Virus record (IMG/VR): IMGVR_UViG_3300025138_000482
Location: 1 to 20,638 of that record
DNA length: 20,638 bases
Reading direction: 5' to 3' (one strand)
From: a virus
Part shown: positions 6,211 to 19,618 of the stretch, in pieces
How positions within the stretch are numbered: the first letter of the stretch is position 1
Layout of the letters: each line of letters begins with the position of its first letter
The notes under the pieces: generated by a model
What the model was told of the DNA's origin: nothing
The model's database searches: none
The model's input: only the letters and a program-made list of their open reading frames with translations
Position numbers and translations under genes: made by a program

Positions 6211-7443
6211 TTACAAATCTAACAAATCTCTTTTAAAATGAGCAAGGGTGTAATCTTTCTTTTTAACCACCGCTTTGTATATATCTTTTTCAATTCCGTC
6301 TCTGCTAAAAATCCAATAAACATTATTAACGAGTCTATTTTTAGTAGTCATTCTGTCTCTGCTTTGCCAGTATGATGTAGCTGAAAAATCTATATTATAA
6401 TAAACCAATGCATTAGCTTCTTTTAAACTTATCCCCTCTCTTCCTGATACTATTTGCAACGCAATACTTTTGTTAGAGTTTTTAAACTCTTCTAAGTCAT
6501 TAGTAATTAAGTCTTTGTAGATCTCTTTTAAAGCATTATATTCCTGGGTAAACTTATAAAAAATTGCTATTTTTTGACGTTTAAATTTATTTAGTATAAA
6601 CTCTGCTTTTGAGTAGTCTAAAATTATTGAGTTACCGCTTTCAAATTTGATTGTTCCAGAACAAAGTTGATGTGTTTTAATCATAAGTTTAGCTGGTGTG
6701 TCTGCTAATAATAATTCTTCTTTACCTTCTATAACTCTGTCTTTTTTTAACTGATTTATAATTTTTATAGTTGATTTTTTTAAATCTACATATAACACTT
6801 TTTCAGTTGTTTCTGTTTTAAAACCTGCCAATTTTTGCGTATAATTAATAATGTAAGGGTTTATTTTTTGTAATATCTTGTCGGTACCCCTTGAGTAATC
6901 ATTAATAAACATACTATTAATTTTTCTTTGCTTTACATCAACATAAGACTTTGCAAAAGCGTAAAAGTTTTTACAATTAGAAAAAGGATTACCAGGTATA
7001 CCATAAACTTGATGAAACATTTGGCTAAAAGATTCAGGAGTTGGAGTTCCAGACAACAATATTACATAAGGATTACAATACATAATTAATTCTTTAACTT
7101 GCCTTGCTCTTTTACTTGGCTTAGGAAATGCACCCATAGAATGAGCCTCATCACACACTACTAAACCCCATTTGTTTTTAGGTAATTTATGAATACTTTC
7201 GTAATTAATTACAGTCAAATCATACCCTGGTTTTAATAAATTATGATCATCTACTATACTTGATATGGCTTTTTTCTTTGTTATAAACAAAACAGAAGAG
7301 ACACTAAGACGACTAGCTATCCCCAGACTTGTAAGAGTTTTACCTGTTCTAACCTCCATAGCTAAATAAACGAAACGATTTAAGTTTAAAATATTTAAAG
7401 ATTTCTCTATAATTTCAGATTGATATTCTCTAAACTTAATCAT
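6211..7443 (-). CDS. SNF2-like DEAH-box helicase/translocase
   Basis: 410 residues, a compact superfamily 2 enzyme. Motifs in order: Q-like N-terminus (FREYQSEIIEKS), motif I R32-T-G-K-T36, motif Ia near 51-57, NYES at 80-83, motif II D98-E-A-H101, motif III S131-G-T-P-T135, motif V around 332-340 (VSGREGISL) and motif VI Q360-S-R-D-R364. Both RecA-like lobes are therefore present and the enzyme should be active as an ATP-driven DNA translocase or helicase. The first lobe is typical of short phage SNF2 proteins without extra domains. Its start overlaps the primase gene end by 8 bases, and the VRR-NUC gene follows by one base, so the three genes look translationally linked and act in replication or repair. 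Confidence 0.9.
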   Translation of the reverse strand: MIKFREYQSEIIEKSLNILNLNRFVYLAMEVRTGKTLTSLGIASRLSVSSVLFITKKKAISSIVDDHNLLKPGYDLTVINYESIHKLPKNKWGLVVCDEAHSMGAFPKPSKRARQVKELIMYCNPYVILLSGTPTPESFSQMFHQVYGIPGNPFSNCKNFYAFAKSYVDVKQRKINSMFINDYSRGTDKILQKINPYIINYTQKLAGFKTETTEKVLYVDLKKSTIKIINQLKKDRVIEGKEELLLADTPAKLMIKTHQLCSGTIKFESGNSIILDYSKAEFILNKFKRQKIAIFYKFTQEYNALKEIYKDLITNDLEEFKNSNKSIALQIVSGREGISLKEANALVYYNIDFSATSYWQSRDRMTTKNRLVNNVYWIFSRDGIEKDIYKAVVKKKDYTLAHFKRDLLDL

Positions 7444-9817
7444 TAGTTTTAAACATAAAATATCTACCGCCTAAATCTCTACCCTCTTCGGGTAAACTAT
7501 TGTATTCGTAAGCCGAGTAAGCCTTTATCCAATTATAAAACCTTCTGCGGGGGACGGTAAACTTTGATTTAGGAGCGAAATCAGGATATTCGCTAATAAA
7601 CTCATCATACAAGTCTTGCTTATACATTCTGCTATTTGGTTTAATTTTTTCATTTATCTGTGAGTCTCCTACTAAACCGCACCACTCTATAAATTCATGA
7701 CAAGTCTCGCTAGACAAATCTTTTATTTTTTTGTTTACAAAATTACCCTTAATTAATCCATTGTTAAGATATAACTGCAAGTTAGTCATCATATAATTAT
7801 CAAACTGACACCATTCAGTATCGTCCCACTCTCCAAACATAAGTTTTCCAAACTCTACCAAAGGAGTAAAGTCTTTCGTGTAAAAATGTGCTAATTCAAG
7901 ATCCCACTTTCTTCTTTCAAAAGAAGATCCCTTTCCTTTTAAAGCATAATTTGTTGTTAAAGAAACTTTAGGAGATTTACTAAAAGGAATTTTCACTGCA
8001 TCCTTGTTTTTACGCTCAAGCGTTATCCCCTCTGTTATTATGCTAAATAATCTTTCAAAATCAAAAGATTTCTTTACATCATCAAAACACAATATTTGTG
8101 TATCAGCCGAAACTAATTGATATGCAAATGATCTTTCAAACGTAAAACTCTTTCCGTCTATGGTTACACATTTCTTCATTTTAGCTAATGCGTTCATAAA
8201 CAACCCCTTACCAGTACCACCCTCAGGATTGTCTGATATAATTTCATCATTAAGTATAACAGCTGGACAGTATGATAAATTTTTCCAACCATGCAGCAAA
8301 TAACCAATGGTAGACTCCATAGAGTTTACTCGGCTATCGTCTTCGCCACAAATATTTGAAATAAAAACTTTATAATCGCAACTACCCACTTTACATAAAG
8401 TAAAAGTCCTATCTATAACATGATCTCTCCATACATAACCACCTAAATCTAAATAATCAATTAGTATAATATCAGTTTTTGTAATTTTAACAGCACAATT
8501 CATATAGTACAAGTATGCTACGTCTTTAGTGTCGGCTATAAAAAAAACATTTATTGAAGCCATTAATGTTAGAAACTCTTCCCTAAAATATCTAGTTTGT
8601 TCAGCAAAATAATTGTAGACAGAAAGATCATCAACTGTAAGTAAATAATTTAAAACAAAATCTTTGATTTCTTTTTCAGACGTATGATCTATTAAATTGT
8701 TGGTTACTCTAACGAATACATAATTTTTACTACCCTCTGGGCTAAACTTATAAAAACCATTGTCTTCCAGGTAGTTCTTAAATAATATATGTACTATTTT
8801 TATTACTCCTTTTTCATTTTTAGTCCAAAACTTATGATTAGTTTGCTCTTCCTCTATTCTTACTATAACGTTTTCTATGTCACCGATATCAATTTTTTCG
8901 TCCTCTAATTGACATCGGATCTCTTTTTTTGAGACGCCACGCCTGAGTTGTTGTTTTACCAGGTTTACCCTGTCTTGATCTTCATAATACTTAGTTCCAA
9001 AATTTTGAACTTGTGCGTATGCGGAATTTATTGTTCTTCTAATTTCGTTTATATTAAAATCTTTTGAATCAAAATTACCCATAACATATTCAGCTAAATT
9101 TTTAGGAACTCCAAAATCATTAAAGGCTGATGCTAAAATAAAAACATTATTATTTCTCTCTCCGTTTACCAGCCCATATTTATTCTCCCACCACTTCATA
9201 AGAATATCTACAATTTTATTTTCATCTGTAACAGGTATTGTTGGCTTGTCTTTATACTTGTTTAATTCAACAAACTCCACTTCCTCTATTTTATCCCAAA
9301 GGCTTGACGTCAAATTTATATGAACTAAAGGATCATAAGACTCGTAACAGACTCTAGAAACATTTTTTGAGGTTGTGTCAAAGTATGGTGAATTAAAATA
9401 TTTGTTTAATGATGAGAAATAATTTTTATGGTTATCTACGTCTTTTGGAACTTTAACTAAAACTTTTAAACCTTTACCACTAGGAGATATAAAAACAGAA
9501 AAAACAAATTTATTTTTAGTTAATTTTTCTTTTTCCTGGAGCAAATCTTTACTTGATTTGTATCCGTCAAAATCTAAACAAATTAAGCCGCTATGCTCTG
9601 TTAGAGAGGCGTCGTTTCTTTTAGTAAAGTTTCCGCTAAAACATATTGCTGGTAATTGTTTTTTTAAATCGTTTCTTTCTTCTTTGTTTTTTGTAAGTCT
9701 TATTTTTTTTACTATATCTTTTGAGTTCCCTTGCTCTATTCTTTCCAGCACTACCATAACATTTCTGTAAAATGGTTGTGATGTGTCTTTTATGTCTTTA
9801 AAAATTGTTATTTGCAT
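7436..9817 (-). CDS. Primase-helicase fusion (VirE-N/BT4734-like primase with SF3-type helicase)
   Basis: 793 residues. The N-terminal 170 residues look like the BT4734/VirE N-terminal domain, a relative of archaeo-eukaryotic primases: hhhDhD motif L81-D82-F-D84, SPSGKG at 111-116 and the S-R-V-C-Y segment at 154-158. A PriCT-like helical region follows (about 200-275). The C-terminal half is a D5/SF3-like helicase: Walker A G533-G-T-G-K537-G, Walker B I575-L-C-F-D579-D580, a sensor-type T-T-N at 621-623 and an arginine-finger candidate R635-R636. It is the likely replicative primase and helicase of the phage. The start is the only good one and lies 112 bases after the SSB-like gene, downstream of a hairpin-rich leader. 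No DNA polymerase is encoded in the window. Confidence 0.9.
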   Translation of the reverse strand: MQITIFKDIKDTSQPFYRNVMVVLERIEQGNSKDIVKKIRLTKNKEERNDLKKQLPAICFSGNFTKRNDASLTEHSGLICLDFDGYKSSKDLLQEKEKLTKNKFVFSVFISPSGKGLKVLVKVPKDVDNHKNYFSSLNKYFNSPYFDTTSKNVSRVCYESYDPLVHINLTSSLWDKIEEVEFVELNKYKDKPTIPVTDENKIVDILMKWWENKYGLVNGERNNNVFILASAFNDFGVPKNLAEYVMGNFDSKDFNINEIRRTINSAYAQVQNFGTKYYEDQDRVNLVKQQLRRGVSKKEIRCQLEDEKIDIGDIENVIVRIEEEQTNHKFWTKNEKGVIKIVHILFKNYLEDNGFYKFSPEGSKNYVFVRVTNNLIDHTSEKEIKDFVLNYLLTVDDLSVYNYFAEQTRYFREEFLTLMASINVFFIADTKDVAYLYYMNCAVKITKTDIILIDYLDLGGYVWRDHVIDRTFTLCKVGSCDYKVFISNICGEDDSRVNSMESTIGYLLHGWKNLSYCPAVILNDEIISDNPEGGTGKGLFMNALAKMKKCVTIDGKSFTFERSFAYQLVSADTQILCFDDVKKSFDFERLFSIITEGITLERKNKDAVKIPFSKSPKVSLTTNYALKGKGSSFERRKWDLELAHFYTKDFTPLVEFGKLMFGEWDDTEWCQFDNYMMTNLQLYLNNGLIKGNFVNKKIKDLSSETCHEFIEWCGLVGDSQINEKIKPNSRMYKQDLYDEFISEYPDFAPKSKFTVPRRRFYNWIKAYSAYEYNSLPEEGRDLGGRYFMFKTND

Positions 9818-9828
9818 TATATTAAATT

Positions 9829-9884
9829 AAAAAAAGGGGGTAGATATAAAAATTTAATTAAAACTGGAAGCTCTTAAACCCCCT
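9829..9884 (-). terminator. Attenuator-like hairpin plus T-run before the primase gene
   Basis: On the minus strand AGGGGGT (9884-9878) can pair with ACCCCCT (9841-9835), and the stem is followed at once by seven T residues (9835-9829), the layout of an intrinsic terminator. The loop is long (about 36 bases, AT-rich). The stem ends 11 bases before the primase ATG, so it would either stop transcription before the primase or, if the RNA continues, lie over its ribosome entry site. Confidence 0.5.
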
Positions 9885-9893
9885 GTTATTGTT

Positions 9894-9920
9894 GGGTGGC
9901 AAAACGCCGTTCGTCCACCC
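9894..9920 (-). promoter_or_regulatory. GC-rich hairpin between SSB-like and primase genes
   Basis: GGGTGG (9894-9899) and CCACCC (9915-9920) form a six-base GC stem with a 15-base loop just after the SSB-like gene. The neighbouring tract AAAGGGGGT (minus strand, 9925-9917) is a perfect nine-base partner of ACCCCCTTT (9841-9833), the same C-tract used by the terminator-like stem. The leader can therefore fold in at least two mutually exclusive ways. Confidence 0.5.
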
Positions 9921-9929
9921 CCTTTATGG

Positions 9930-10217
9930 TTAAAACGGCAAATCTGGATCGTTGTCTGGAGTAACCTTCATACTTTCCAGTTTTGCTGAAAGGTCTTCTT
10001 TCTTAGGCTCTGGCTTCCAAGTGTCAATAGATACAGAATGTGATTTACCATACTGATCTACTTCTTTTTTCTTTTGGACATTCAGTTTTATGTATTTCTT
10101 AGAATTGTACTCAAATATATGTTCTGATGGTAAATCAGAAAGACATATACTACAAGACACAAGATTTCCTTCAAACTTTGATATACCTGATCCAACAAAA
10201 ATTTTTTTATCTTCCAT
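9930..10217 (-). CDS. SSB-like single-stranded DNA-binding protein
   Basis: 95 residues, strand-rich, with a Lys-rich linker and ending in DNDPDLPF. An acidic tail that closes with Pro-Phe is the hallmark of bacterial and phage single-stranded DNA-binding proteins, where it recruits replication and repair partners. The body (residues 1-65) is short for a classical OB fold and was not recognised on its own; the two CxxC-like cysteines at 22 and 25 are noted but have no other pair. Position between the exonuclease/annealing genes and the primase supports the role. The start follows the stop of the 57-residue gene by two bases. Confidence 0.55.
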   Translation of the reverse strand: MEDKKIFVGSGISKFEGNLVSCSICLSDLPSEHIFEYNSKKYIKLNVQKKKEVDQYGKSHSVSIDTWKPEPKKEDLSAKLESMKVTPDNDPDLPF

Positions 10218-10219
10218 TT

Positions 10220-10393
10220 TTAATGTATTTTAACTTGATGCTCCAAAATTTCTAAAACGTCAGCCATAAGCTGTTGCTTTTGCTGTTCGCTCTCCATAGT
10301 AGTTGGAACTTCTACTATAAATATTTCTCTTTCCCAGGACAACTTAGAAAGATAGTGTTTTAATACTTGATAAGCTATTTTATAATGTTTCAT
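10220..10393 (-). CDS. Small 57-residue protein between exonuclease and SSB-like genes
   Basis: An ATG frame from 10393 to a TAA at 10222-10220. It overlaps the end of the exonuclease gene by 14 bases and stops two bases before the SSB-like ATG, so it fills an otherwise 162-base gap exactly. The protein has an N-terminal basic helix, a short strand (EIFIVEVP) and a Gln-rich C-terminal helix. No family recognised. The fit between its two neighbours and balanced composition make it a likely real gene. Confidence 0.7.
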   Translation of the reverse strand: MKHYKIAYQVLKHYLSKLSWEREIFIVEVPTTMESEQQKQQLMADVLEILEHQVKIH

Positions 10394-11132
10394 AATGTAT
10401 GAATTGTTCTATGTCTTCTGCAAACAAACCATCACAAAAGAACTTGTCGTGTACTTGCAACGCCTCTAAAACCTTTAATGATCCTCTGTGAATAAAATCT
10501 TCGCTCGGGGTGTAGATAGCTAATTGATGCGTATTTTTATCTATAACATAAAACTCCATAGGTAGTCCAAACAACTCTTGATATATAAACGCCTGGCTAT
10601 CATAGTTATACTTTGAAGCTGAGTATGAAAACTTAGAAATATCTGACGTAGTTTTTAAATCAATTATTTTTTCGGTAGTTACAATATCCGCTTTACCTTT
10701 CCAGAATTTGCCATGGATATTTTTTATCATAGGCAATTCATATTGATTTGATTCCTCATAAATATCTCCATGCATTTGCATATTTGCTTTCATAGAGTCA
10801 ACTAATTTAAATATTTTTTCAGCTTCATGAACTAATAAACACATTTTATTATCTTCACTATTTACAGCCTCTTTATACGCCTTAGTATTACGACTAGAGG
10901 CGTCTATTAAAATAAAATCATCTAGCTTTTCTTTTTCTAACATGGCTGTATGAAAAAATCTACCCTCTAGCATAGCTTTTGTTTCTGCTTGAGGTTTGCC
11001 AAATTCTTTTGGATTGTTTAGTAAAGTATATATGTCTGAATTAGACAACCATTGTTTACCAAACTTTCCATAATATTTTTTATCGTCTTTTAGTTGATCT
11101 AAAACTTCTTTATTATTATCGCTAACTATCAT
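10380..11132 (-). CDS. PD-(D/E)XK exonuclease (RecE/ExoVIII-like, DUF3799 type)
   Basis: 250 residues. The nuclease core is visible: the helical G57-R-F-F-H61 motif, the strand with GKAD149, D158-L-K160 (the D-x-K of the active site) and the Y177/Q180 helix (NYDSQAFIYQ). This pattern is that of the PD-(D/E)XK exonucleases related to RecE/ExoVIII and DUF3799. It should resect double-stranded DNA ends to give 3' single strands for the annealing protein encoded two bases upstream. Together they form a two-gene homologous recombination module as in lambda Red or RecET. The 57-residue gene overlaps its end. Confidence 0.85.
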   Translation of the reverse strand: MIVSDNNKEVLDQLKDDKKYYGKFGKQWLSNSDIYTLLNNPKEFGKPQAETKAMLEGRFFHTAMLEKEKLDDFILIDASSRNTKAYKEAVNSEDNKMCLLVHEAEKIFKLVDSMKANMQMHGDIYEESNQYELPMIKNIHGKFWKGKADIVTTEKIIDLKTTSDISKFSYSASKYNYDSQAFIYQELFGLPMEFYVIDKNTHQLAIYTPSEDFIHRGSLKVLEALQVHDKFFCDGLFAEDIEQFIHYETL

Positions 11133-11134
11133 GG

Positions 11135-11665
11135 CTATTCTATTATAATGTTAGCAATCTCCTTTTTTACTTTTGCAGTAATTTTATATTTCTGCTCTAA
11201 AGTTTTGACAATCTTAGGTAATCCCATAGATTTATTTGACGCTATCCAGTCTAATGTTTTTTTCATATCAGCATCTCCCAAGTCAAGAACAACGCTAGTA
11301 GGTTTTGTCGGCTCTTTTCTCTCATTTAAAATAGCATTCTTTACCTCGTCTGCTGATGCAACTGATGTGTCTAGCCCTATTCCAAAGTTACCCAAAGCCC
11401 TACCCCATGCTGATGTTTCGCAATTCTCAACATAAGATGTTTTATTTATAAAAGAAGATCCGTTTCTTTCCTTAGCCGTTCCCGACGCTAGAAGACGTCC
11501 CTCTTCGTTAAGTATAAATGCTTTCATTGTGATAGTGTCCTCTGTGATTTCTATTATACTTGTGTCTAAAGTATACTGAGGATATGTCTCTCTAAAGTAT
11601 TGTATCCTGGTATGCACTTCAACATACTCTTTACCTTTAATATTTACCGTTTTTAATTTTTTCAT
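11135..11665 (-). CDS. Putative single-strand annealing protein (Sak/Erf/Rad52-like)
   Basis: 176 residues. The strand-rich N-terminal part runs from about 12 to 75 and ends in the segment NCETSAWGRALGNFGIGLD (81-99), followed by SVASADEV (101-108). Helical E-T-S-A-x-G-R-A-L motifs of this kind are typical of phage annealing-type recombinases and related 'DNA repair' proteins. The basic C-terminal region (130-176) may be a small helical domain. Its exonuclease partner follows by two bases, which is the strongest support for a recombinase role. I cannot assign it firmly to Sak, Erf or another annealing family by eye. Confidence 0.65.
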   Translation of the reverse strand: MKKLKTVNIKGKEYVEVHTRIQYFRETYPQYTLDTSIIEITEDTITMKAFILNEEGRLLASGTAKERNGSSFINKTSYVENCETSAWGRALGNFGIGLDTSVASADEVKNAILNERKEPTKPTSVVLDLGDADMKKTLDWIASNKSMGLPKIVKTLEQKYKITAKVKKEIANIIIE

Positions 11666-12059
11666 ATTTATTTAGTTTAATTAGTTTTTGACTGTAATAA
11701 GAATATCTGTTCATTACAAACTCCCGTTTTGTTTTTAAATTCTTAATATATTTATCATTCTTCCTGGTGTTAACCTCCTCCTTCATGCTTTTTTGTATCA
11801 TTTTCAGCTTTCTAATGCAGTTGTTTATAGCTATTGTTACGCATCCAACAACCCAGCCCTTAGTAAAAAAAATTTTATACTCTTCCAGGCTTAACTCTTG
11901 AAAGTAATCTCCATTTTTTGCACAATTAAGTATTTCTGTTTTACTAGGAAACTTTTGTATCTTTACTCCTAGATTGATCATGCTTACCGATCCATTCCTT
12001 TGTATATTTAGTGTTTCATCATCTACTGCTTGTTTATATATATCAGAAAGGGTATACAT
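11637..12059 (-). CDS. Unknown 140-residue basic helical protein
   Basis: No family recognised. The N-terminal 60 residues are mixed, followed by a hydrophobic segment around GWVVGCVTIAINNCIRKL (68-85) and a very basic C-terminal helical tail that could be a coiled coil or bind nucleic acid. It overlaps the annealing-protein gene by 29 bases and lies one base after the DnaA-like gene, so it is part of the replication and recombination cluster. Confidence 0.75.
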   Translation of the reverse strand: MYTLSDIYKQAVDDETLNIQRNGSVSMINLGVKIQKFPSKTEILNCAKNGDYFQELSLEEYKIFFTKGWVVGCVTIAINNCIRKLKMIQKSMKEEVNTRKNDKYIKNLKTKREFVMNRYSYYSQKLIKLNKYEKIKNGKY

Positions 12060-12060
12060 T

Positions 12061-12363
12061 TTAGCTTACTGAATTTTTTAAAATACTATCTACAACCTCT
12101 TTATAGTCAGGATCACTATCTACAAACTTTTTTGCTTTGTTATATCCGTAAATAATGGTAGAATGTGTTACGGGGTGTCCGTTATCTTCCATGAATTTTT
12201 GAATATAAGAAAACCTTATTGGACGTTCTCTTGACAAAAAGTATAGCATTTGTCTTGCTTCTACGACTTCTCTTTTTTTAGTTTTTGTAAACATTTCATC
12301 TAATGTTACATGAAATCTATCTGCTATTGCAGTTGCATACTTATCAAATATTTCTCTTTTCAT
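12061..12363 (-). CDS. Stand-alone DnaA domain IV-like DNA-binding protein
   Basis: 100 residues. Residues about 10-95 resemble the C-terminal DNA-binding domain (domain IV) of the initiator DnaA: the helix R31-E-V-V-E-A-R-Q-M-L-Y, then the helix-turn-helix with V65-T-H-S-T-I-I-Y-G-Y (matching the position of the DnaA signature D-H-T-T-V-x-x-A) and a closing helix. The AAA+ ATPase and the other domains are absent, so this is a binding module alone. It could mark the phage origin, act as a repressor, or compete with host DnaA. No clear DnaA-box cluster was seen in the window. It lies one base after the DUF3310-like gene. Confidence 0.8.
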   Translation of the reverse strand: MKREIFDKYATAIADRFHVTLDEMFTKTKKREVVEARQMLYFLSRERPIRFSYIQKFMEDNGHPVTHSTIIYGYNKAKKFVDSDPDYKEVVDSILKNSVS

Positions 12364-12364
12364 T

Positions 12365-12628
12365 TTATTTTTTTTTATTTAATTTTTCTAATCTTTCTAT
12401 CTCAAACTTGAGATGATTTATAGATTTTTGTAAACATTCTATGGGGCTTTCGTGCTTTCTAGAACTACGGAGACAATATGTAACAACGTTACCTATGTTC
12501 CATGTACAATTAAAGTCTTCCACCACATATCTTGCTTGATAGTACCCCTCTCTGTATGTGTCTCCTACATAATAGTTAGGTACTTCAATAGTGTGAGACG
12601 GAACATATAATTTAGGATCTTTACTCAT
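12365..12628 (-). CDS. DUF3310 (SaV-like) family protein
   Basis: 87 residues. The segment from about 22 to 82 fits DUF3310: an N-terminal Y-Y-x-x-x-Y-x-x-x-Y part, then F39-N-C-x-W-N-I-G-N-V-V-T-Y-C-L-R54 (the conserved 'F-x-x-G-N-x-x-K-Y-x-x-R' helix) and a C-terminal helix CLQKSINHLKFEIERL. Family members are common phage genes close to replication functions and have been annotated as nucleotide-kinase-like, but their biochemical role is not settled. It overlaps the preceding gene by four bases (ATGA). Confidence 0.75.
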   Translation of the reverse strand: MSKDPKLYVPSHTIEVPNYYVGDTYREGYYQARYVVEDFNCTWNIGNVVTYCLRSSRKHESPIECLQKSINHLKFEIERLEKLNKKK

Positions 12629-12864
12629 TTTCTGTAATTTTTTAATTTATACTTACTCATATCATTTCTTTCCCATTGAAATTGAGGGGGAGTAATATTG
12701 GAATAGTAGCTACAAGCTACAAATTTATTATTTAATTCTTGTTTACCACTATTTTTAAAAAAATTATTCATTTCTATATAATTTAGTCTATTTTTTATAT
12801 CGTATTTTTTCTTTTCCTGGGCTTTCTTACATTGATTTACCAGGTATGTAGACAATTCTTTCAT
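12625..12864 (-). CDS. Small basic Asn/Lys-rich protein, unknown
   Basis: 79 residues, rich in Lys, Asn and Tyr, with a basic helical N-terminal half. No family recognised. Its ATG lies 21 bases after the second of two structured RNA elements (12886-12944), so its translation may depend on that structure. Its end overlaps the DUF3310-like start by ATGA, supporting both frames. Confidence 0.65.
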   Translation of the reverse strand: MKELSTYLVNQCKKAQEKKKYDIKNRLNYIEMNNFFKNSGKQELNNKFVACSYYSNITPPQFQWERNDMSKYKLKNYRK

Positions 12865-12885
12865 ATTATTTTATTTTATTTATAT

Positions 12886-12944
12886 AAAGGGACAGTTAAG
12901 AGTATTAACTTATCGTTGGCTTATGCCTTTATAACTGCCCCTTT
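12886..12944 (-). ncRNA. Structured RNA element 2 (13-bp stem with inner ATAA-loop hairpin)
   Basis: On the minus strand AAAGGGGCAGTTA (12944-12932) pairs along its full length with TAACTGTCCCTTT (12898-12886). The one non-Watson-Crick position is G-U in this strand but A-C in the opposite strand, so the RNA acts on the transcribed strand. Inside lies GGC-ATAA-GCC (12927-12918). The element starts 6 bases after element 1 and ends 21 bases before the ATG at 12864. It may be a cis-acting leader, a processing site or a small RNA; nothing known was recognised. Confidence 0.5.
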
Positions 12945-12949
12945 ACATT

Positions 12950-13019
12950 ATAAGAGGTAAACATTTAATATTAAGGTATCTTACACCTATAAAATTATGG
13001 GATTATTCCCACCTCTTAT
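12950..13019 (-). ncRNA. Structured RNA element 1 (multi-branched, outer stem AAGAGGT/ACCTCTT)
   Basis: On the minus strand ATAAGAGGT (13019-13011) pairs with ACCTCTTAT (12958-12950); two further inner positions become G-U pairs on this strand only. Inside are GGGA-ATAA-TCCC (13010-12999) and an arm AGGTGT-AAG-ATACCT with one G-U pair. The layout recalls a cloverleaf, but there is no T-loop and the anticodon arm is poor, so it is not a tRNA. The TAA stop of the 43-residue gene lies inside the first outer strand, so ribosomes ending there would melt the stem. Confidence 0.5.
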
Positions 13020-13147
13020 TTCTTATAATTATTTAAAATTATTTGCTTTAGTATGGTTTGGTTTAACTTCTGCAACCATTGTATAAATTTTCTGTTTGGC
13101 TTTTCCTTTAGTTTTTCCTTAAGGATCATTTCTTGCACCTCTCTCAT
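13016..13147 (-). CDS. Small 43-residue basic helical protein
   Basis: An ATG frame from 13147 to TAA at 13018-13016. Its ATG overlaps the stop of the zinc-ribbon gene (ATGA), the same coupling seen elsewhere in the operon. The peptide is a very basic, probably helical chain (Lys, Gln, Leu, Ile). No family recognised. Its stop codon lies inside the outer stem of RNA element 1, so it may matter for that element as well as for its product. Confidence 0.55.
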   Translation of the reverse strand: MREVQEMILKEKLKEKPNRKFIQWLQKLNQTILKQIILNNYKK

Positions 13148-13350
13148 CTTCCTAAGTCTCTACGCTCATCAGCTTCCATCTCTGCTATTTGATCAAGTCT
13201 CATTTGCCTGTACTCGTAATCTTCTGTAATCTCACAATAGTCTTGACAAGAATTACAAACATAATATTCAAAAGAATCAATCTCTAATTCAGCATCAATA
13301 GAGTCTACCCAATCACTTCCACAGCACTTACTAACCATTTCTACCCCCAT
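13144..13350 (-). CDS. Small zinc-ribbon-like acidic protein
   Basis: 68 residues. Cysteines C9, C10 and then C32-x-x-C35 with C39 give a K-C-C-G-S plus C-N-S-C-x-x-x-C pattern, like small zinc ribbons of phage proteins. The C-terminal third is a charged helix. Binding of zinc is inferred from spacing; the function is not known. The first Met is used because its ATG overlaps the preceding stop (TAATG); Met 5 is an alternative that would remove only four residues. Confidence 0.7.
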   Translation of the reverse strand: MGVEMVSKCCGSDWVDSIDAELEIDSFEYYVCNSCQDYCEITEDYEYRQMRLDQIAEMEADERRDLGR

Positions 13351-13610
13351 TACCAGTTAAAGTTTATAGGGGTTTCTTTAACTTGTTCTCTTTGTTTTTT
13401 TATTTTCTTCTCTAAATTTTTAGATCTCAAGTTTTTATGTTCTTTTACTATATAGTCTATCCAGTCATTATAATCTAATGCCCTGTATTTATACTTGTTA
13501 AAGTATTTTTTATAGTCTTTATCCATTTTCTTATGTATTAAGTTAATAAAAAAGAGAAAGAAACACGCCGAACAGCTTCTAATTACATTGTTGATTTCGC
13601 CTAACATCAA
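13350..13610 (-). CDS. Small Lys/Tyr-rich protein, start uncertain
   Basis: 86 residues from the first ATG, but the first 28 (hydrophobic and cysteine-containing, about SCSACFFLFFINLIHKK) differ sharply from the rest. The Met at residue 29 (ATG at 13526-13524, preceded by an A-rich leader) gives a 58-residue soluble, strongly charged protein and is the better start in my view. If the long form is real, it is a single-pass membrane protein with a basic cytoplasmic tail. No family recognised. Its stop overlaps the next ATG by one base. Confidence 0.6.
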   Translation of the reverse strand: MMLGEINNVIRSCSACFFLFFINLIHKKMDKDYKKYFNKYKYRALDYNDWIDYIVKEHKNLRSKNLEKKIKKQREQVKETPINFNW

Positions 13611-13678
13611 CTCTTTGTATGTTTATATAAAATTCAATTAGTGTGTAATATTACAATATTTTTACTTCAAATCAAAAT

Positions 13679-14449
13679 TTAGCTAAATAAATCTTGCATA
13701 TCTGTTTCTGATCTTACAAGAACAGCTAACAAATTACTTTCTAATTGTTTATTTTGAGCATAGTCCAGGAGAGTATACTCAATTACCTCTCCGCTATTCA
13801 TATCATAATCGTTATAATCTAAGTATTCAGCATTAAAATAATATGATATAACATCATGATCATACGAATTAGTAGTTTTTTGATATTTTTTTGTCCATAA
13901 CGTAGCCAAATGATCGTTCCAATCCTGGTTGGTGTACGGAGATTGAGTTAAGGGGTTAAGCGGATCTTCTTTTCTTTTATTTATCTCGTACAACTGCGTT
14001 ACTTTCCACAAGTTATCTAATAAATTAATTGTACTCTGTTGGTTTAAACAATACAGATTATGAGACAACAAAGGAGAGACAATCATGCAATCATCATCTT
14101 TTAATTCTTTTACCTTTACAGATACCCTTTGTATTCTTCCATGCACCAGGTACCATACATCAGTAGAATTATCATAGTCTATTATAAAACCTAAGTGTAA
14201 AGATCTGCTTATTCTATAAAAAGACGCATTAATATAGTCTTCGTCAATTATCCAATCTGTTTTACTTACTTTAATAATACTATTGAAATCAAAGCTACAT
14301 ACCTGGTTAATGTACTGCTGTATATTATCTTGAACTTTCTTGATAGGAAAGTCTTTAGCATCAATAAAACTAATAGAATTAGTAACTAACTCTACGTTCT
14401 TGTCAAAATTTAACTTGCTTAATTCAATAGATATAACAAATTTTTTCAT
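13679..14449 (-). CDS. Unknown 256-residue protein
   Basis: The largest of the unknown early genes. No motif recognised. The N-terminal half (1-135) has alternating strands with a Trp/Tyr/His-rich stretch around VWYLVHGRIQRVSVKV; the C-terminal half is acidic and Tyr/Asn/Asp-rich. No membrane segment and no zinc motif. It ends 68 bases before the next gene and begins 12 bases after the MGYRS-family gene. Confidence 0.8.
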   Translation of the reverse strand: MKKFVISIELSKLNFDKNVELVTNSISFIDAKDFPIKKVQDNIQQYINQVCSFDFNSIIKVSKTDWIIDEDYINASFYRISRSLHLGFIIDYDNSTDVWYLVHGRIQRVSVKVKELKDDDCMIVSPLLSHNLYCLNQQSTINLLDNLWKVTQLYEINKRKEDPLNPLTQSPYTNQDWNDHLATLWTKKYQKTTNSYDHDVISYYFNAEYLDYNDYDMNSGEVIEYTLLDYAQNKQLESNLLAVLVRSETDMQDLFS

Positions 14450-14461
14450 TTTATTACAAAG

Positions 14462-14803
14462 TTAATCGTTTTCTCCATATATTTCGTGAGTAGTAAATAT
14501 TCCAACAAAATCGTAGTAATGCCCATGTTCTGTGTGAATATTTCCGTCTTCTCCTATGCCTACAATGAACGCATCTTCGTCGTCTTCTTCAATAAGGTGT
14601 AATATATATTTATTTATAGCATTAACATCTTCAAAACTATCATACCATTTTAAATATTCTCCTCTATAAATTACCATAGATAATGATCTTGCTTCGTTAA
14701 AACTTTGATCAACTTTTTTAAACATAGAATTTTTGTTTAACGCTTTTAAATCTTTTTCATATTTTTTATTTACCCCTATTATAATTGTGCTTCTATATCC
14801 CAT
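14462..14803 (-). CDS. MGYRS-type small phage protein
   Basis: 113 residues. It begins with M-G-Y-R-S and contains the segment EYLKWYDSFEDVNAINKYI (about 49-67) followed by an acidic region and a strand with a G-E-D-G motif (85-88). Proteins starting MGYRS with a W-Y-x-S-F-x-D-V helix are a recurrent phage family of unknown function, usually in early-gene clusters. The match is by memory of this pattern. No catalytic residues are evident. Confidence 0.75.
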   Translation of the reverse strand: MGYRSTIIIGVNKKYEKDLKALNKNSMFKKVDQSFNEARSLSMVIYRGEYLKWYDSFEDVNAINKYILHLIEEDDEDAFIVGIGEDGNIHTEHGHYYDFVGIFTTHEIYGEND

Positions 14804-14819
14804 AATTAATGTATTATAT

Positions 14820-15086
14820 TTATAAATGTCCTCCGTAATTTTTACCTACAATATCATATCTACATTCACTATCTCCCCTTTCATTCATTCCATCATACTC
14901 ATCTACTCCACAAGATCCATACTCAAAAGGGGCTTTAGAACACGCTTTATCTATTTTATCAACAAATAACTCTTCATTTTCCTGTAAATATTCTAAAACA
15001 TCTTTATCTTTAATATCATTAGGTACTTCAATCTCTACTTCAGCATATTTATGATATACTGATCTTTGCATAATTTTTACTTTCAT
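14820..15086 (-). CDS. Small acidic phage protein, unknown
   Basis: 88 residues. An N-terminal strand pair (KVKIMQRSVYHKYAEVEIEV) is followed by a helix (KDVLEYLQENEELFVDKI) and an acidic, Gly/Tyr-rich C-terminal half. Such strand-helix small proteins are frequent in early regions of tailed phages. No family assigned. It starts 5 bases after the neighbouring gene with an A-rich leader and no Shine-Dalgarno sequence. Confidence 0.7.
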   Translation of the reverse strand: MKVKIMQRSVYHKYAEVEIEVPNDIKDKDVLEYLQENEELFVDKIDKACSKAPFEYGSCGVDEYDGMNERGDSECRYDIVGKNYGGHL

Positions 15087-15091
15087 TTTAT

Positions 15092-15301
15092 TTAATTTAT
15101 TGGTTTATGATTTTCATCTAATTCGGTTATTATACTTGTAAACAAAGTAATGCTTTCATCTCCATCATTCCATATTTCAATATTATTAAATATAATATCA
15201 AAATCCTCATCTTCTCCATTAGTTCTGTTTCCTAATAAGTGTATGTATTTATCTTTGTTTTCTATTTTTTGCAGTTCTGCAATCAATTCTTTTACTATCA
15301 T
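15092..15301 (-). CDS. Small acidic protein with IWNDG motif (a)
   Basis: 69 residues: an N-terminal helix V-K-E-L-I-A-E-L-Q-K typical of a small phage family, then strands, with I43-W-N-D-G47 followed by D-E-S. The neighbouring gene product at 15321-15548 carries the same I-W-N-D-G in a similar strand context. Function unknown; the shared motif suggests related folds. Confidence 0.7.
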   Translation of the reverse strand: MIVKELIAELQKIENKDKYIHLLGNRTNGEDEDFDIIFNNIEIWNDGDESITLFTSIITELDENHKPIN

Positions 15302-15320
15302 TTTATTTAATAATTTTTAA

Positions 15321-15548
15321 TTATAATTCTTCTTCGTATTTGGTAATTAAGTCTTCAAGATCCCATTCTGACAATTCTTCATACTTTTTTGGGTTAAAAG
15401 ATTCGTCTCTTAAATCAAAGTTAAGATAGGTTTGTCCTCCATTTCCATCATTCCAAATAGATACACCTTTGAAATTTGTTTTGCATTCATACCCTACGCC
15501 TCTCCTGGTGTTGTATGTTCTTATGCTAGTTACTCTTAAATCAGTCAT
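15321..15548 (-). CDS. Small protein with IWNDG motif (b)
   Basis: 75 residues. Strand-rich front half with I31-W-N-D-G35 followed by N-G-G-Q-T-Y-L, and an acidic helical C-terminus (SEWDLEDLITKYEEEL). It shares IWNDG with its neighbour at 15092-15301 but is otherwise different. Function unknown. Its ATG overlaps the stop of the 56-residue gene before it (ATGA). Confidence 0.7.
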   Translation of the reverse strand: MTDLRVTSIRTYNTRRGVGYECKTNFKGVSIWNDGNGGQTYLNFDLRDESFNPKKYEELSEWDLEDLITKYEEEL

Positions 15549-15715
15549 GATTCATCTAATTTTAACAAAGAGTTTGCCTCTTTCATTACTAAATAGTTAT
15601 ATCTACTTACCTTAAGAGGATATTGTGGATCTACCAATATGCTCCATGTCTGATCTTCAAATAATTCTTTTTTTAAGTTTTCTTTTTCTTGTTTCTCTTC
15701 TTTAGTTAAATTCAT
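15545..15715 (-). CDS. Small 56-residue charged protein
   Basis: An ATG frame from 15715 to TGA at 15547-15545. It starts two bases after the stop of the 130-residue gene and its TGA overlaps the next ATG (ATGA), filling the gap exactly. An N-terminal Lys/Glu-rich helix is followed by a short W-S-I-L-V-D-P-Q-Y-P-L segment and a second helix. No family recognised. Exact junctions on both sides make it convincing. Confidence 0.75.
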   Translation of the reverse strand: MNLTKEEKQEKENLKKELFEDQTWSILVDPQYPLKVSRYNYLVMKEANSLLKLDES

Positions 15716-15717
15716 AA

Positions 15718-16110
15718 TTATTTATTTTTAAAGGTTTCTATATGTATATCGGTTAATGTGTAACTACTAATATCTTCCTCCTCTTCTCCATCAGCAATTC
15801 TATCTTCGTTTAATCTTTTTAAGTATTTTTTTGGATCGTTTGTGCAAACATCATGAAATACCTTTCCATAACTATCTTTATAAGTCATTAATGTAAAAGG
15901 TTTATTATAATCAGACTGAATTATATTTAATTTACTTTCTAATGTATTTAACACTATTAGTTTTGAATATATATCTTCCATCGTAGCTTTTTGTTTATCT
16001 ACGTTCATGCTTATATCATCTCTCATATCGTAATACAAGTAAGATTCTATTGCTCTTGTTATAAGTTCTAATTCTTCTTTATTTATTGATAGTTCTGTTG
16101 CTATTTTCAT
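15718..16110 (-). CDS. Unknown 130-residue protein
   Basis: A helical N-terminal half (residues 8-65, including KEELELITRAIESYLYYD) that could dimerise, then a strand-rich part (TLMTYKDSYGKVFHDVC) and an acidic patch EEEED near 109-113. No family recognised and no zinc, nucleotide or membrane motif. Packed one base from the following upstream gene in the early operon. Confidence 0.75.
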   Translation of the reverse strand: MKIATELSINKEELELITRAIESYLYYDMRDDISMNVDKQKATMEDIYSKLIVLNTLESKLNIIQSDYNKPFTLMTYKDSYGKVFHDVCTNDPKKYLKRLNEDRIADGEEEEDISSYTLTDIHIETFKNK

Positions 16111-16111
16111 A

Positions 16112-16390
16112 TTATTTATTATTTTGATTAAAATTGATCATTTCTATTTTTTCTATTAATTTATCTAATTCATTAATATCATCATCTACCCTACAATCGT
16201 ATTCGCTCTCCATTAGGGCGTTTATTAATTCATTTCTAGAATACTTGTTGTCAGTATCTATCAGATAATTCTCTGGTTTATCAGCAAACCAAGAAATGTA
16301 TTCTTTTGATAGTTGTGCAAAATTTAAATTGACATAATATTCAAATTGTACTTGTTCCCATATTTTTAGCAGTTGTTTTTTACTTTTCAT
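16112..16390 (-). CDS. Unknown 92-residue helical protein
   Basis: Mostly helical: a basic N-terminal helix (KSKKQLLKIWEQVQFEYYV), a central segment with a W-F-A-D-K-P motif (34-39) and an acidic C-terminal helix rich in Glu, Asp and Ile. No family recognised. It follows the 160-residue gene by two bases, with A-rich leader. Confidence 0.7.
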   Translation of the reverse strand: MKSKKQLLKIWEQVQFEYYVNLNFAQLSKEYISWFADKPENYLIDTDNKYSRNELINALMESEYDCRVDDDINELDKLIEKIEMINFNQNNK

Positions 16391-16392
16391 AA

Positions 16393-16875
16393 TTATTGTG
16401 TTAATTCATATTCGTCAAACCTTTCCATCTCCCAACTTTCTCCAATTTCTTTTTTTATGTCTTCTAATCCTGGAAATTCAACATCATCAACAGAAATAAC
16501 GCATCTGTTTACTACTCTACTATGCCCTGAAGAGAGCATTTCTATCGTCTCTATTAAATAATCGTTTTTATGTGTATAAGTTTTCTCTAGTATTTTTTTA
16601 AGATTTTCTACTTTTTCTACTTCTCCATTATAATAGATTTGGAATTTTGCATATTCTCCCTGGACATAACCTATTGCTTCTGCCGTTATACTATTAGAAA
16701 ATTGATCGGGTAGTGTATCTTGGTTTTTCAAAAGTTGTTCCATAAAGAACCAATGCTTATCTTTTGTCCATACATTAACATCTAATTGTTCAAGTTCATT
16801 TCTTAAATCATCTCTCCATCTTTCTACGCTCAGTTGAGAATCGTAATCTCTTGTAATTTTTGCTATTATTTTCAT
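16393..16875 (-). CDS. Unknown 160-residue acidic protein
   Basis: No family recognised. The N-terminal 60 residues start with a strand (KIIAKITRDY), then a helix and a W-T-K-D-K-H-W-F-F motif. The middle holds a G-Y-V-Q-G-E-Y-A-K-F-Q-I-Y-Y-N-G strand pair (about 89-104), and the C-terminus is acidic. It has one of the conserved A-rich initiation leaders (16881-16897), five bases before its ATG. Confidence 0.75.
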   Translation of the reverse strand: MKIIAKITRDYDSQLSVERWRDDLRNELEQLDVNVWTKDKHWFFMEQLLKNQDTLPDQFSNSITAEAIGYVQGEYAKFQIYYNGEVEKVENLKKILEKTYTHKNDYLIETIEMLSSGHSRVVNRCVISVDDVEFPGLEDIKKEIGESWEMERFDEYELTQ

Positions 16876-16880
16876 TTTGT

Positions 16881-16897
16881 TTAATTGTTTTTAGTTA
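16881..16897 (-). promoter_or_regulatory. Initiation leader repeat, copy in front of the 160-residue gene
   Basis: The minus strand reads TAACTAAAAACAATTAA, five bases before the ATG at 16875. The core recurs in front of two other genes (17090-17105, 17783-17798). Here it overlaps the 3' end of the upstream gene and its closing TAA is that gene's stop. Confidence 0.45.
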
Positions 16898-17084
16898 TTT
16901 CGTATGCTTTATTATAGCATTTTTTTCTATTAATATCATTCCAATTACCATTATCATATAAGTGATTATCCTCTCCTATTTGTATTGCTAATTCTATTAT
17001 ATCAAATGTATCTGCTTGTTTCTCATCATTTACATCTATATGTTTTGCAATAACCTTAGAATATTCTGATATTATTATTTTCAT
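16881..17084 (-). CDS. Small 67-residue protein, unknown
   Basis: Begins with a strand-like KIIISEYSKVIAKHI and continues with an acidic helix and a basic Tyr-rich C-terminus (RKKCYNKAYEITKNN). No family recognised. Its end supplies the initiation leader of the next gene, and its own start has the same leader (17090-17105), so both are likely expressed to similar levels. Confidence 0.7.
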   Translation of the reverse strand: MKIIISEYSKVIAKHIDVNDEKQADTFDIIELAIQIGEDNHLYDNGNWNDINRKKCYNKAYEITKNN

Positions 17085-17089
17085 TTTGC

Positions 17090-17105
17090 TTAATTGTTTT
17101 AGTTA
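17090..17105 (-). promoter_or_regulatory. Initiation leader repeat, copy in non-coding DNA
   Basis: TAACTAAAACAATTAA on the minus strand, five bases before the ATG at 17084. This copy lies in a 65-base non-coding gap, so it is not explained by coding constraint. A looser version (AACTAAAATAAATTAA) precedes the ATG at 17359. Confidence 0.5.
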
Positions 17106-17149
17106 GCTAATATAAGTATTAATTATTATATACACAAGTTTTAGACAAG

Positions 17150-17359
17150 TTATCTGTAATAATCTTTTATTTCATAAACTAAAGTTGTTCCAAATTTCTT
17201 TGCTACCCTTTCTAGTTGTGTTTTGGCGTGAACGTACTCTGTCCAGGAGAAAGGAAAACTATCTACATCATTAAGAATTTCTTTTTCTTGTTGGTGTACT
17301 ATTTTCTTCCATAAATTAATATTGTATTCTAGCTGATCAAATTCTGTTTTAATTTTCAT
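17150..17359 (-). CDS. Small 69-residue helical protein, unknown
   Basis: Predicted to be mainly helical (EFDQLEYNINLWKKIVHQQE, then a second helix HAKTQLERVAKKFG after an F-P-F-S-W-T-E turn). Such two-helix proteins can form helical hairpins. No family recognised. It starts one base after the gene at 17361-17558. Confidence 0.7.
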   Translation of the reverse strand: MKIKTEFDQLEYNINLWKKIVHQQEKEILNDVDSFPFSWTEYVHAKTQLERVAKKFGTTLVYEIKDYYR

Positions 17360-17360
17360 T

Positions 17361-17558
17361 TTAATTTATTTTAGTTATTTTTATTTCAAAATTGTCATCT
17401 ATATCTATTCCTAATACTTTATTTATTTCATCTTGTATTATGTCTTGTATTTCAAAATGATGTTCATCAGCAGTTAATGAAGCAAATAACTGGGAATCTA
17501 TTAATTTATTTATACATCTTATAGATATATCTCTTGTATCATCATAAGTTACTTTCAT
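17361..17558 (-). CDS. Small 65-residue strand/helix protein, unknown
   Basis: I chose the Met at 17558 because it begins one base after the stop of the previous gene (TAA-T-ATG); an upstream Met at 17576 would add six residues but overlap that gene by 17 bases. The protein has a strand M-K-V-T-Y-D-D, helices in the middle and a C-terminal strand with D-I-D-D-N-F-E-I-K-I-T. No family recognised. Confidence 0.7.
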   Translation of the reverse strand: MKVTYDDTRDISIRCINKLIDSQLFASLTADEHHFEIQDIIQDEINKVLGIDIDDNFEIKITKIN

Positions 17559-17559
17559 A

Positions 17560-17778
17560 TTATACGATTTTTTCAAGATCTGTTAACCTTTTTAGTTTTA
17601 CTTTATCCGTCAAAGTATCCCAATCAGAAGGCATTTCCCAGTCTGGAATTAGTTTTCTCATTGTTGCAAAGACAATTCTCTGTTTAGATATAACTTTGTC
17701 TTTTATACTTGTATTTTCTCTTTGTGTCATTGTGTTCATAGTAAGGAACATTTTCATAAAATTTAAATCGTTTTCCAT
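17560..17778 (-). CDS. Small 72-residue protein, unknown
   Basis: N-terminal Met-rich helix, then an S-I-K-D-K-V-I-S-K-Q-R helix and the compact segment LIPDWEMPSDWDTLTDKV (residues 43-60), which has two Trp and looks like a conserved small domain. No family recognised. It is preceded by the third copy of the initiation leader (17783-17798). Confidence 0.7.
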   Translation of the reverse strand: MENDLNFMKMFLTMNTMTQRENTSIKDKVISKQRIVFATMRKLIPDWEMPSDWDTLTDKVKLKRLTDLEKIV

Positions 17779-17782
17779 TGTT

Positions 17783-17798
17783 TTAATTGTTTTAGTTA
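17783..17798 (-). promoter_or_regulatory. Initiation leader repeat, third copy
   Basis: TAACTAAAACAATTAA on the minus strand, four bases before the ATG at 17778 and identical to the copy at 17090-17105. Here the first TAA of the motif is the stop codon of the upstream gene. Confidence 0.5.
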
Positions 17799-18095
17799 AT
17801 AATTTTTTAAATAATATCCATCTTCTTCTTCAATACTCCAGTTCTTTTCTTTCTCGCTGCTTTGCATTCCAAGATCTGTTTTTATTGTTAGGTTTAATTC
17901 ATTTGCTACATAATTAATGTATTTTGTAGTTGTTGGGCTAGTGTTTATTGTTTCTTCTTTTCCTTTCCATATTCTTTTTATCTCCCAATCTTCAAGTATT
18001 AAATTGTTTCCTTTTATTGTTGCAATATGCGTATTGTATGCAATAATTTTGTTGTTCTCTCGGTGTAAGTTTTGCTTGTATTTTTTGAATGTCAT
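17796..18095 (-). CDS. Small 99-residue phage protein (possible DUF8033-like)
   Basis: The N-terminal half carries strands (IAYNTHIATIKGNNLILEDW), and residues 53-71 (SPTTTKYINYVANELNLTI) form the conserved 'S/P-T-T-x-H/Y-I-N-Y-V-A' helix seen in a recurrent family of small Bacteroidota phage proteins. I recall this pattern as DUF8033 but could not check it. The C-terminal third is acidic. Function unknown. Confidence 0.65.
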   Translation of the reverse strand: MTFKKYKQNLHRENNKIIAYNTHIATIKGNNLILEDWEIKRIWKGKEETINTSPTTTKYINYVANELNLTIKTDLGMQSSEKEKNWSIEEEDGYYLKNY

Positions 18096-18098
18096 AGT

Positions 18099-18263
18099 TT
18101 ATTTTTTTGCGTTATTGTAGTCAATTAATATTTCTTTTGTTAGTTGTGCATTTTTTATCCTCATATCCTGGTATTTTAAAAACGTATTTGATAGTATACA
18201 AACAATCAATACGATAAATAAATATTTTATTAATTCTAATAGTAATTCTGTTTTAGTTTTCAT
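18099..18263 (-). CDS. Small single-pass membrane protein (54 residues)
   Basis: An ATG frame from 18263 to TAA at 18101-18099. Residues about 7-29 are a hydrophobic segment (LLLELIKYLFIVLIVCILSN) after a basic K-T-K-T start, followed by a charged helical tail (KYQDMRIKNAQLTKEILIDY). It is an N-anchored inner-membrane protein with a short cytoplasmic or periplasmic tail. A spanin, superinfection-exclusion or lysis-timing protein are possibilities, but the gene lies in the early region and nothing specific is seen. It fills the gap between neighbours (3 and 8 bases). Confidence 0.65.
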   Translation of the reverse strand: MKTKTELLLELIKYLFIVLIVCILSNTFLKYQDMRIKNAQLTKEILIDYNNAKK

Positions 18264-18271
18264 AAGTTATT

Positions 18272-18532
18272 TTATAAATGTGTTAGACAATTATTACAAA
18301 AAATGTAATTTTCTTTCTCTTCGTTTTCTGCATTACATTTCCAACATTTAACAATCTTTTTTTTGTCTTCTTCTAATATTTCTAAAGCCGCGATACAATG
18401 CTCTAATTTTTCTTCGTCGTCCCAGTACATAACACCTTTTTGAAATTGTATGTTTGCTAATGTGGTTTGTAATCTTTCTTTTATTGCTTTTATATTGCAG
18501 TCAATAAGTAAATTTTGTCTTTCTATTATCAT
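18272..18532 (-). CDS. Small protein with C-terminal zinc ribbon
   Basis: 86 residues. The first 60 are a long helix (IKERLQTTLANIQF and EKLEHCIAALEILEEDKKK) that could form a coiled coil. The end is a zinc ribbon: C63-W-K-C66 and C79-N-N-C82. Its start lies downstream of a promoter-like box within a 35-bp repeat shared with the first gene of the operon. Function unknown; a transcription- or translation-related binding role is possible. Confidence 0.75.
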   Translation of the reverse strand: MIIERQNLLIDCNIKAIKERLQTTLANIQFQKGVMYWDDEEKLEHCIAALEILEEDKKKIVKCWKCNAENEEKENYIFCNNCLTHL

Positions 18533-18563
18533 AATATAAGTTTAATTAATGTTCAAATATAGT
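18529..18563 (-). repeat. 35-bp direct repeat, copy 1 (leader plus -7 box)
   Basis: Identical over 35 bases to 19142-19176. It contains the ATG (18532-18530), the untranslated leader and, on the minus strand, TATATTTG (18561-18554), a Bacteroidota -7 box 21 bases before the ATG. It is an internal promoter of the early operon. No TTG stands at -33 here, so this promoter may be weaker than the other copy. Confidence 0.75.
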
Positions 18564-18572
18564 TAAATTTAT

Positions 18573-18974
18573 TTAATATGTATTATATTTATTATAATTT
18601 TTGTTAAATATCTTTACTATTAATTTTTTGCTTATTCCTGGGTAGTCTCTTAAATTTTCTACGCAGTCGGAAATATCTCCAGTATAAAAACATTCATAAT
18701 TGGCTAATTCTCTTAATACTATTCTATTTATGGTGTGAAGTTTTATGTCTTCTAGTATTGAATCATTGTAAATCTTTTCAAGCCCCTGGCTTAGTGTCTC
18801 GGCGTTTTCTTTTGGGCATATCATACCGCCTCCCATTGAAACAAGTTTGGTGTTTTTAATATTATGTTTCTTTTTTCCCTCTTCTAGTTGTTCATTAGAA
18901 AAAGCAAAGAATGTTTTTGTTTTATTAAATAATAGTGTTTGTTTGTCTTCCATTAATTCCGATAGATATTTCAT
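18573..18974 (-). CDS. Unknown 133-residue protein (possible DUF7659-like)
   Basis: The segment FFAFSNEQL (22-30) followed by V45-S-M-G-G-G-M-I-C-P-K-E-N (45-57) and R84-I-V-L-R-E-L-A-N-Y-E-C-F-Y-T-G-D (84-100) is a distinctive pattern I associate with a small family of phage proteins (DUF7659, from memory). The conserved Cys residues C53 and C95 do not form a standard zinc motif. Function unknown. It ends 40 bases before the internal promoter of the zinc-ribbon gene. Confidence 0.7.
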   Translation of the reverse strand: MKYLSELMEDKQTLLFNKTKTFFAFSNEQLEEGKKKHNIKNTKLVSMGGGMICPKENAETLSQGLEKIYNDSILEDIKLHTINRIVLRELANYECFYTGDISDCVENLRDYPGISKKLIVKIFNKNYNKYNTY

Positions 18975-18977
18975 TTA

Positions 18978-19145
18978 TTAGTAATTTTTAGTTAAGAATT
19001 TAACAAGATCTTTTCTTGTCATTTTTGTAGTTGGTTTTACTTTAAAAAATGCATTTGCGAACACCTGGAAATTTTCCGATTGTCTCACTATTTCGGCGTC
19101 AATTAAGTGTTCGTTGCATATTGTTACAAATTCCGTGTATGTCAT
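18978..19145 (-). CDS. First gene of the leftward operon, 55 residues
   Basis: An ATG frame from 19145 to TAA at 18980-18978. Its start is fixed by the 35-bp repeat and a full promoter. The peptide begins M-T-Y-T-E-F-V-T-I-C-N and ends with a basic M-T-R-K-D-L-V-K-F-L-T-K-N-Y segment, probably all helical. No family recognised. As the first product of the early block it would be made soonest after infection, so a role in host takeover or early regulation is possible, but this is only position-based. Confidence 0.75.
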   Translation of the reverse strand: MTYTEFVTICNEHLIDAEIVRQSENFQVFANAFFKVKPTTKMTRKDLVKFLTKNY

Positions 19146-19176
19146 AATATAAGTTTAATTAATGTTCAAATATAGT
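19142..19176 (-). repeat. 35-bp direct repeat, copy 2
   Basis: Exact copy of 18529-18563 in front of the first gene of the leftward operon. It includes the ATG, the leader and the -7 box. The copies are 613 bases apart and the coding sequences behind them are unrelated, so the repeat is regulatory. Confidence 0.8.
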
Positions 19177-19604: not shown

Positions 19605-19618
19605 TTAAAAAAAAAGAC

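Follow-up and report, generated by a model that had tools for sequence, protein, structure and literature searches.

Structured intergenic RNA elements with covarying helices in the replication operons of marine phages, and a possible role in mRNA punctuation

The sites at which RNase III processes T7 early mRNA are irregular hairpins and have no conserved multi-helix core in common between phage lineages, and the small self-cleaving ribozymes (twister, pistol and hammerhead) consist of compact helices around an invariant loop, with no fixed gene association. The put RNA of HK022, which is about 70 nt long and forms two stem-loops, requires no dedicated protein; it lies just downstream of the early promoters and acts on RNA polymerase (PMC9378689). 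The L17 downstream element, by comparison, is a 3'-UTR structured RNA tied to one gene (PMC2864571).

Two elements, A and B, from the window (i.e., the whole 20,638-nt stretch of viral DNA that was analysed) share features with each of these. Like the T7 sites, they are intercistronic structures in a phage early operon, where any processing would be putative; like put, they measure about 70 nt, form two stem-loops and belong to a phage early transcript, but they differ from put in position, sequence and architecture. As with the L17 downstream element and other 3'-UTR RNAs, they are located behind a gene, but A, B and a third element, C, follow many different genes. Among known systems, their closest functional analogues would seem to be structured intergenic elements for processing or termination. 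The features of the A-B region are as follows.

12950..13019, minus strand: element A, identified by its fold and by covariation among its homologues
13011-13019/12950-12958, minus strand: stem P1 of A, 9 bp
12999-13010, minus strand: hairpin P2 of A, GGGA-AUAA-UCCC
12974-12988, minus strand: hairpin P3 of A, AGGUGU..AUACCU
about 12959-12973, minus strand: conserved single strand of A, ..AUAUUAAAUGUUU
12882..12948, minus strand: element B, identified by its fold and by covariation among its homologues
12932-12948/12882-12898, minus strand: stem P1 of B, 17 bp
12928-12931, minus strand: core UAAA of B
12918-12927, minus strand: hairpin P2 of B, GGC-AUAA-GCC
12901-12909, minus strand: core GUUAAUACU of B
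13016..13147, minus strand: ORF of 43 aa that precedes A and has its stop codon within A P1; homologues occupy the same place in relatives
12625..12864, minus strand: 79-aa ORF downstream of B, its start codon about 17 nt past B P1; family searches gave no match

The original prediction had placed two structures, each with a long outer stem, at 12886-13019, and both are present: on the minus strand A and B lie side by side and together span 12882-13019, with outer stems of 17 bp in B and of just 9 bp in A. The minimum free energy of the minus strand across 12865-13024 is -46.5 kcal/mol, compared with -24.3 +/- 3.6 for 200 dinucleotide shuffles (z = -6.2), and since none of the 200 folded as well, the proposed comparison with shuffled sequence came out in favour of a structure. 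The plus strand of the same interval is clearly poorer (-37.2 kcal/mol, z = -4.4); taken singly, the minus-strand folds of B and A have z-scores of -5.7 and -3.5. The inner hairpins GGGA-AUAA-UCCC and GGC-AUAA-GCC were found as claimed, and a second inner hairpin of A, AGGUGU-AAG-AUACCU, had been missing from the earlier list. Four G-U pairs had been expected on the minus strand; such pairs do occur, but the minimum-energy fold contains three, two in the outer stem of B and one in the second inner hairpin of A. The first stem had been correctly said to contain the 43-residue gene's stop codon, which occupies 13016-13018 in the 5' strand of the A outer stem. This arrangement, through which translation of the gene might, as had been suggested, influence folding, is seen again across much of the window's clade, but because A and B follow unrelated genes elsewhere, the overlap of a stop codon with the base of A does not define the element.

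Using as seed the annealing-protein gene that lies about 1.3 kb downstream of the elements, we collected 80 IMG/VR loci, of which about 29 have all or most of the tandem A-B pair at the corresponding position. Motif scans reach far outside the window's clade, with 39 and 57 stretches that match one or the other form of the B core and 94 that match A (counts prior to structural filtering). Two covariance models (R1, built for B, and R2, built for A) gathered 66 different sequences of B and 45 of A, and two-sided (i.e., compensatory) changes occur in these homologues at 15 of the 17 pairs of B and at 12 of the 15 pairs of A. The number of cells with two-sided changes was 221 in B, against 73 when shuffled, and 176 in A, against 55; covariation was equally high in 0 of 500 shuffles for either element. 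When the 3' partners were slid by 1-3 columns, the covariation score fell from 0.62 to about 0.13-0.15 in B and from 0.71 to 0.10-0.23 in A. Although these alignments were fitted to the models, an unfitted MAFFT alignment of 20 tandem loci is in agreement, showing two-sided changes at 17 of 28 RNAalifold pair positions, and RNAalifold finds B P1 unprompted in the model-fitted alignment too. Compensatory changes beyond the controls, which are the general mark of a structured RNA element, are thus found in A and in B, and the covariation that had been proposed as a check among related phages is strong in both; together with the slide controls, it bears out the claim that these are structured RNAs.

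The homologues also identify the strand. Across the alignments, G-U outnumbers A-C in the outer stems by 132:0 in B and 41:0 in A, and therefore the molecule under selection is RNA with the same sense as the neighbouring genes, as anticipated from the window when the minus (transcribed) strand was named as the active form. Structure, strand and covariation are thus matters of observation for both elements.

It had also been stated that the elements belong to no recognised class. This holds for Rfam 15, which gave 0 matches at the gathering threshold in the window and 13 other loci; looser scans returned only chance miRNA- or plastid-like matches below threshold, and nothing credible. We regard A and B as new families of phage structured intergenic RNA, absent from Rfam 15, that may already stand in phage RNA-structure catalogues. 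Fremin, Bhatt and Kyrpides are said to have assembled in 2023 a catalogue of predicted phage structured RNAs, which could already list A or B.

Each family is organised around a conserved core. In the 66 homologues of B, the closing pair of P1 is an invariant A-U, followed by UAAA and the short P2 (GGC..GCC), which is replaced by a longer hairpin in four loci (L466, L471, L486 and L326); the 3' part consists of a variable linker, GUUAAUAC, which may resemble 16S rRNA, and UU, and then P1'. Homologues of A have the layout P1, P2, linker, P3, (A)UAUUAAAUG and P1', with P2 missing in some copies (e.g., L496). A hidden start codon in A (AAAUGUUU) was considered and rejected, as the reading frames are conserved neither in length nor in sequence.

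A block of unpaired, (nearly) invariant nucleotides between two helices is what one would expect if B, and perhaps A and C, were a small ribozyme that cleaves itself and so cuts the polycistronic transcript, and the variable flanks, the tandem occurrence and the lack of a fixed gene association fit the same idea. The likeness to twister, pistol and hammerhead extends to compact helices and an invariant loop, but the elements match none of the Rfam ribozyme families, cleavage is putative, and we consider such an activity very improbable.

A and B are two separable families and not a single unit. One contig of 107.9 kb (G007) has B at position 30173 and A at position 48879, on another (G012) they are about 700 bp apart, and many contigs have A alone or B alone, such that the two behave as independent modules. 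A composite A-B RNA, held together by pairing of UAUUAA with UUAAUA, was rejected because both strings are conserved where only A or only B was detected. In two loci (L486 and L455), behind a DNA polymerase gene, A and B are separated by an additional hairpin (GATAAGAGAGAG..CTCTCTCTTATT).

None of the contigs, which may be fragments, contains a second strong copy of the same class (A or B). That a genome has no more than one strong A and one strong B, among unrelated genes, is reminiscent of mobile RNA genes, and the elements might be trans-acting noncoding RNAs, one A and one B for each phage, cut out of the operon transcript. Promoters and terminators of their own, and targets of their conserved loops, would be hypothetical, and A, B and C swap with each other and with plain terminators after the same kinds of genes; we judge a role in trans distinctly unlikely.

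The elements are intergenic and placed with some regularity. The distance from the preceding stop codon to P1 has a median of 5.5 nt (58 of 84 within 15 nt), and that from P1 to the next ATG a median of 18 nt (73 of 86 within 10-30 nt). DNA polymerase A (Pfam PF00476; 25 elements), SSB-like proteins (11), GroEL and exonuclease VIII often precede them, and although such preceding genes recur, the following genes differ among copies. The steady distance of about 18 nt to the next ATG, and the riboswitch-like layout of helices around an invariant core, could indicate a regulatory operator or aptamer in which a ligand, or a protein from the phage or its host, binds the core and so controls translation of the next gene. 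Yet the constant link to functionally related downstream genes that characterizes riboswitches is not seen, the downstream genes being unrelated among copies, and A also occurs where its strand has no downstream gene: in four loci (L178, L260, L441 and L465) it stands at the end of an operon, facing a convergent gene, so A need not regulate a downstream gene. An operator or aptamer is therefore rather unlikely.

The same positions bear on the comparison with put. By analogy, consecutive stem-loops of about that size in an early operon of a phage could be antiterminators that modify the RNA polymerase that has just transcribed them. But put is found just downstream of early promoters (PMC9378689), ahead of the genes that it serves, while these elements appear to be mid-operon, and at the operon ends where A also occurs there is little for antitermination to act on; we view a put-like activity as highly improbable. 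Whatever their role, the elements are unlikely to be idle, because a 58-kb relative has very little noncoding sequence.

A third element stands at another junction, likewise on the minus strand of the window.

9833..9925, minus strand: element C, an A-like third element at the SSB-like/primase junction, identified by stem scan; fold z-score -3.0; U7 after it
9930..10217, minus strand: 95-aa SSB-like ORF upstream of C, tail DPDLPF
7436..9817, minus strand: primase/helicase gene downstream of C, with Pfam BT4734-like_N, PriCT_1 and DUF5906

In C, P1 encloses P2 and P3, there is also a AAUUAAAUUUUU strand, and the U-tract (U7) comes after the element. A near-identical C core, with a different P1, is present in three other phage contigs (L640, L642 and L644), where it is preceded by SSB-like, 389-aa and GroEL genes; one C-preceding gene outside the window encodes another protein with an SSB-like acidic tail. 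The covariance model of A did not detect C, which is probably a third class related to A. The 95-aa ORF has no match in Pfam or PHROGs, and its DLPF-type tail and its position suggest that it is an SSB.

It is at this junction that the relationship with terminators is most apparent. Where the window has C and U7, many close relatives have a compact GC-rich hairpin and a U-tract at the same spot, and a few have other A-like elements; interchange with terminator hairpins at one junction is thus observed. B and C, moreover, occur in different phages behind the same two kinds of gene, one for GroEL and one for another type of protein that has an SSB-like tail. Runs of at least five U follow P1 in 13/38 lone A and 3/36 lone B, but in 0/30 tandem A and 2/30 tandem B. 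C (with its U7) and 13 of the 38 lone A therefore resemble intrinsic terminators with a long structured loop, in that they have a GC-rich stem and a U-tract, usually close behind a stop codon; A and B of the window have no U-tract. The elements differ from such terminators by their highly conserved loop core, and B and the tandem A-B pair by the missing U-tract.

One locus (L072) has an element that keeps P1, P2 and U8 and, compared with the A of another locus (L069), appears to have lost the 3' half of P3 and the conserved strand. It looks like a natural deletion derivative of that A, and the apparent deletion offers a natural test of the need for the A core. The sites of the intact A and of the apparent deletion are L069 1129-1216 and the region of L072 before the DnaA-like ORF (5660), respectively. 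In the window, a stand-alone 100-aa protein (12061-12363, minus strand) matches only the DnaA C-terminal helix-turn-helix (PF08299); its gene is in the same operon in nearly all relatives, with A directly ahead of it in two loci (L076 and L498).

Most simply, A, B, C and plain terminators can all be read as alternative solutions to a single task at gene ends. We tentatively propose, at a little under even confidence, that A and B, with the related C, are interchangeable intercistronic mRNA punctuation elements in the replication operons of marine Bacteroidota phages. The elements would fold in the nascent transcript just behind the stop codon, and the folded element would define the 3' end of the preceding message or shield it. 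Copies with a U-tract after them (C and roughly one in three lone A) would act by termination, and those without one (B and the tandem A-B pair) by processing or by blocking exonucleases. Because B and the tandem pair have no U-tract, termination is not the whole story. The invariant cores would presumably bind a host or phage factor. As speculation, phages may use different classes instead of repeats of one in order to avoid recombination.

Other points also run counter to punctuation: simple termination or protection needs no such strongly conserved cores, and a distance of about 18 nt to the following start codon would suit a role in downstream translation as well. A bolder form, which we think unlikely, is that A, B and C are new functional classes of phage RNA whose invariant cores would themselves be active (by self-cleavage, or by directly modifying RNA polymerase or the ribosome) and which interchangeably cut or end messages, with different classes at different junctions.

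Sequence affinities indicate which phages use these elements. The window's primase (BT4734-like domain) has its best annotated match in Podoviridae sp. ctfjg026 (66%) and, at a distance, its next matches in phages of Flavobacterium, Maribacter, Polaribacter and Cellulophaga; the TerL of G007 has about 25% identity to Crassvirales terminases. The hosts are likely Bacteroidota, and probably marine Flavobacteriia. Covariance-model searches found nothing convincing in ctfjg026 or in the initial 50 kb of an Elemovirus and of Maribacter phage Panino; nor was a similar element seen by eye in ctfjg026, a freshwater relative, and hence the function is dispensable or replaceable. A nucleotide search of named phages gave no match beyond chance ones. 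An element of host genomes was considered and rejected: among 80 pattern matches in bacterial and archaeal genomes, none ranks with true copies once the outer stem is required. Both models found no match in 397 genomes (the family of one Flavobacteriaceae MAG), a set without a positive control.

Other sequences in these phages deserve mention. Positions 1-15875 of the window are 99.8% identical to the start of a 58.3-kb contig (G001), in which the last 4.8 kb (15876-20638) have no match, reflecting either a contig break or a variable region. A nested inverted repeat, ATATACGAATTAGATTA..AGC(A/G)AAACGCT..TAATTTAATTCGTATAT, is conserved in related phage contigs (G001 47572-47626, minus strand; G009 27558-27606, minus strand; G003 17465-17513, minus strand; G011 48000-48048) and may be an origin, attachment or terminator element. 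The window also encodes an 82-aa protein (3963-4211, plus strand; ..TEEYEKCAE..) that is as widespread as the terminase among 19 diverse phage contigs, 16 of which have a relative of it.

Message-level control within the long replication operons of such phages is, to our knowledge, little studied. Here, RNA families backed by covariation recur across diverse marine phages, some of them distantly related to Crassvirales, and the presence of different structured RNAs at corresponding junctions, where they sometimes replace plain terminators, leads to a testable hypothesis of phage mRNA punctuation.
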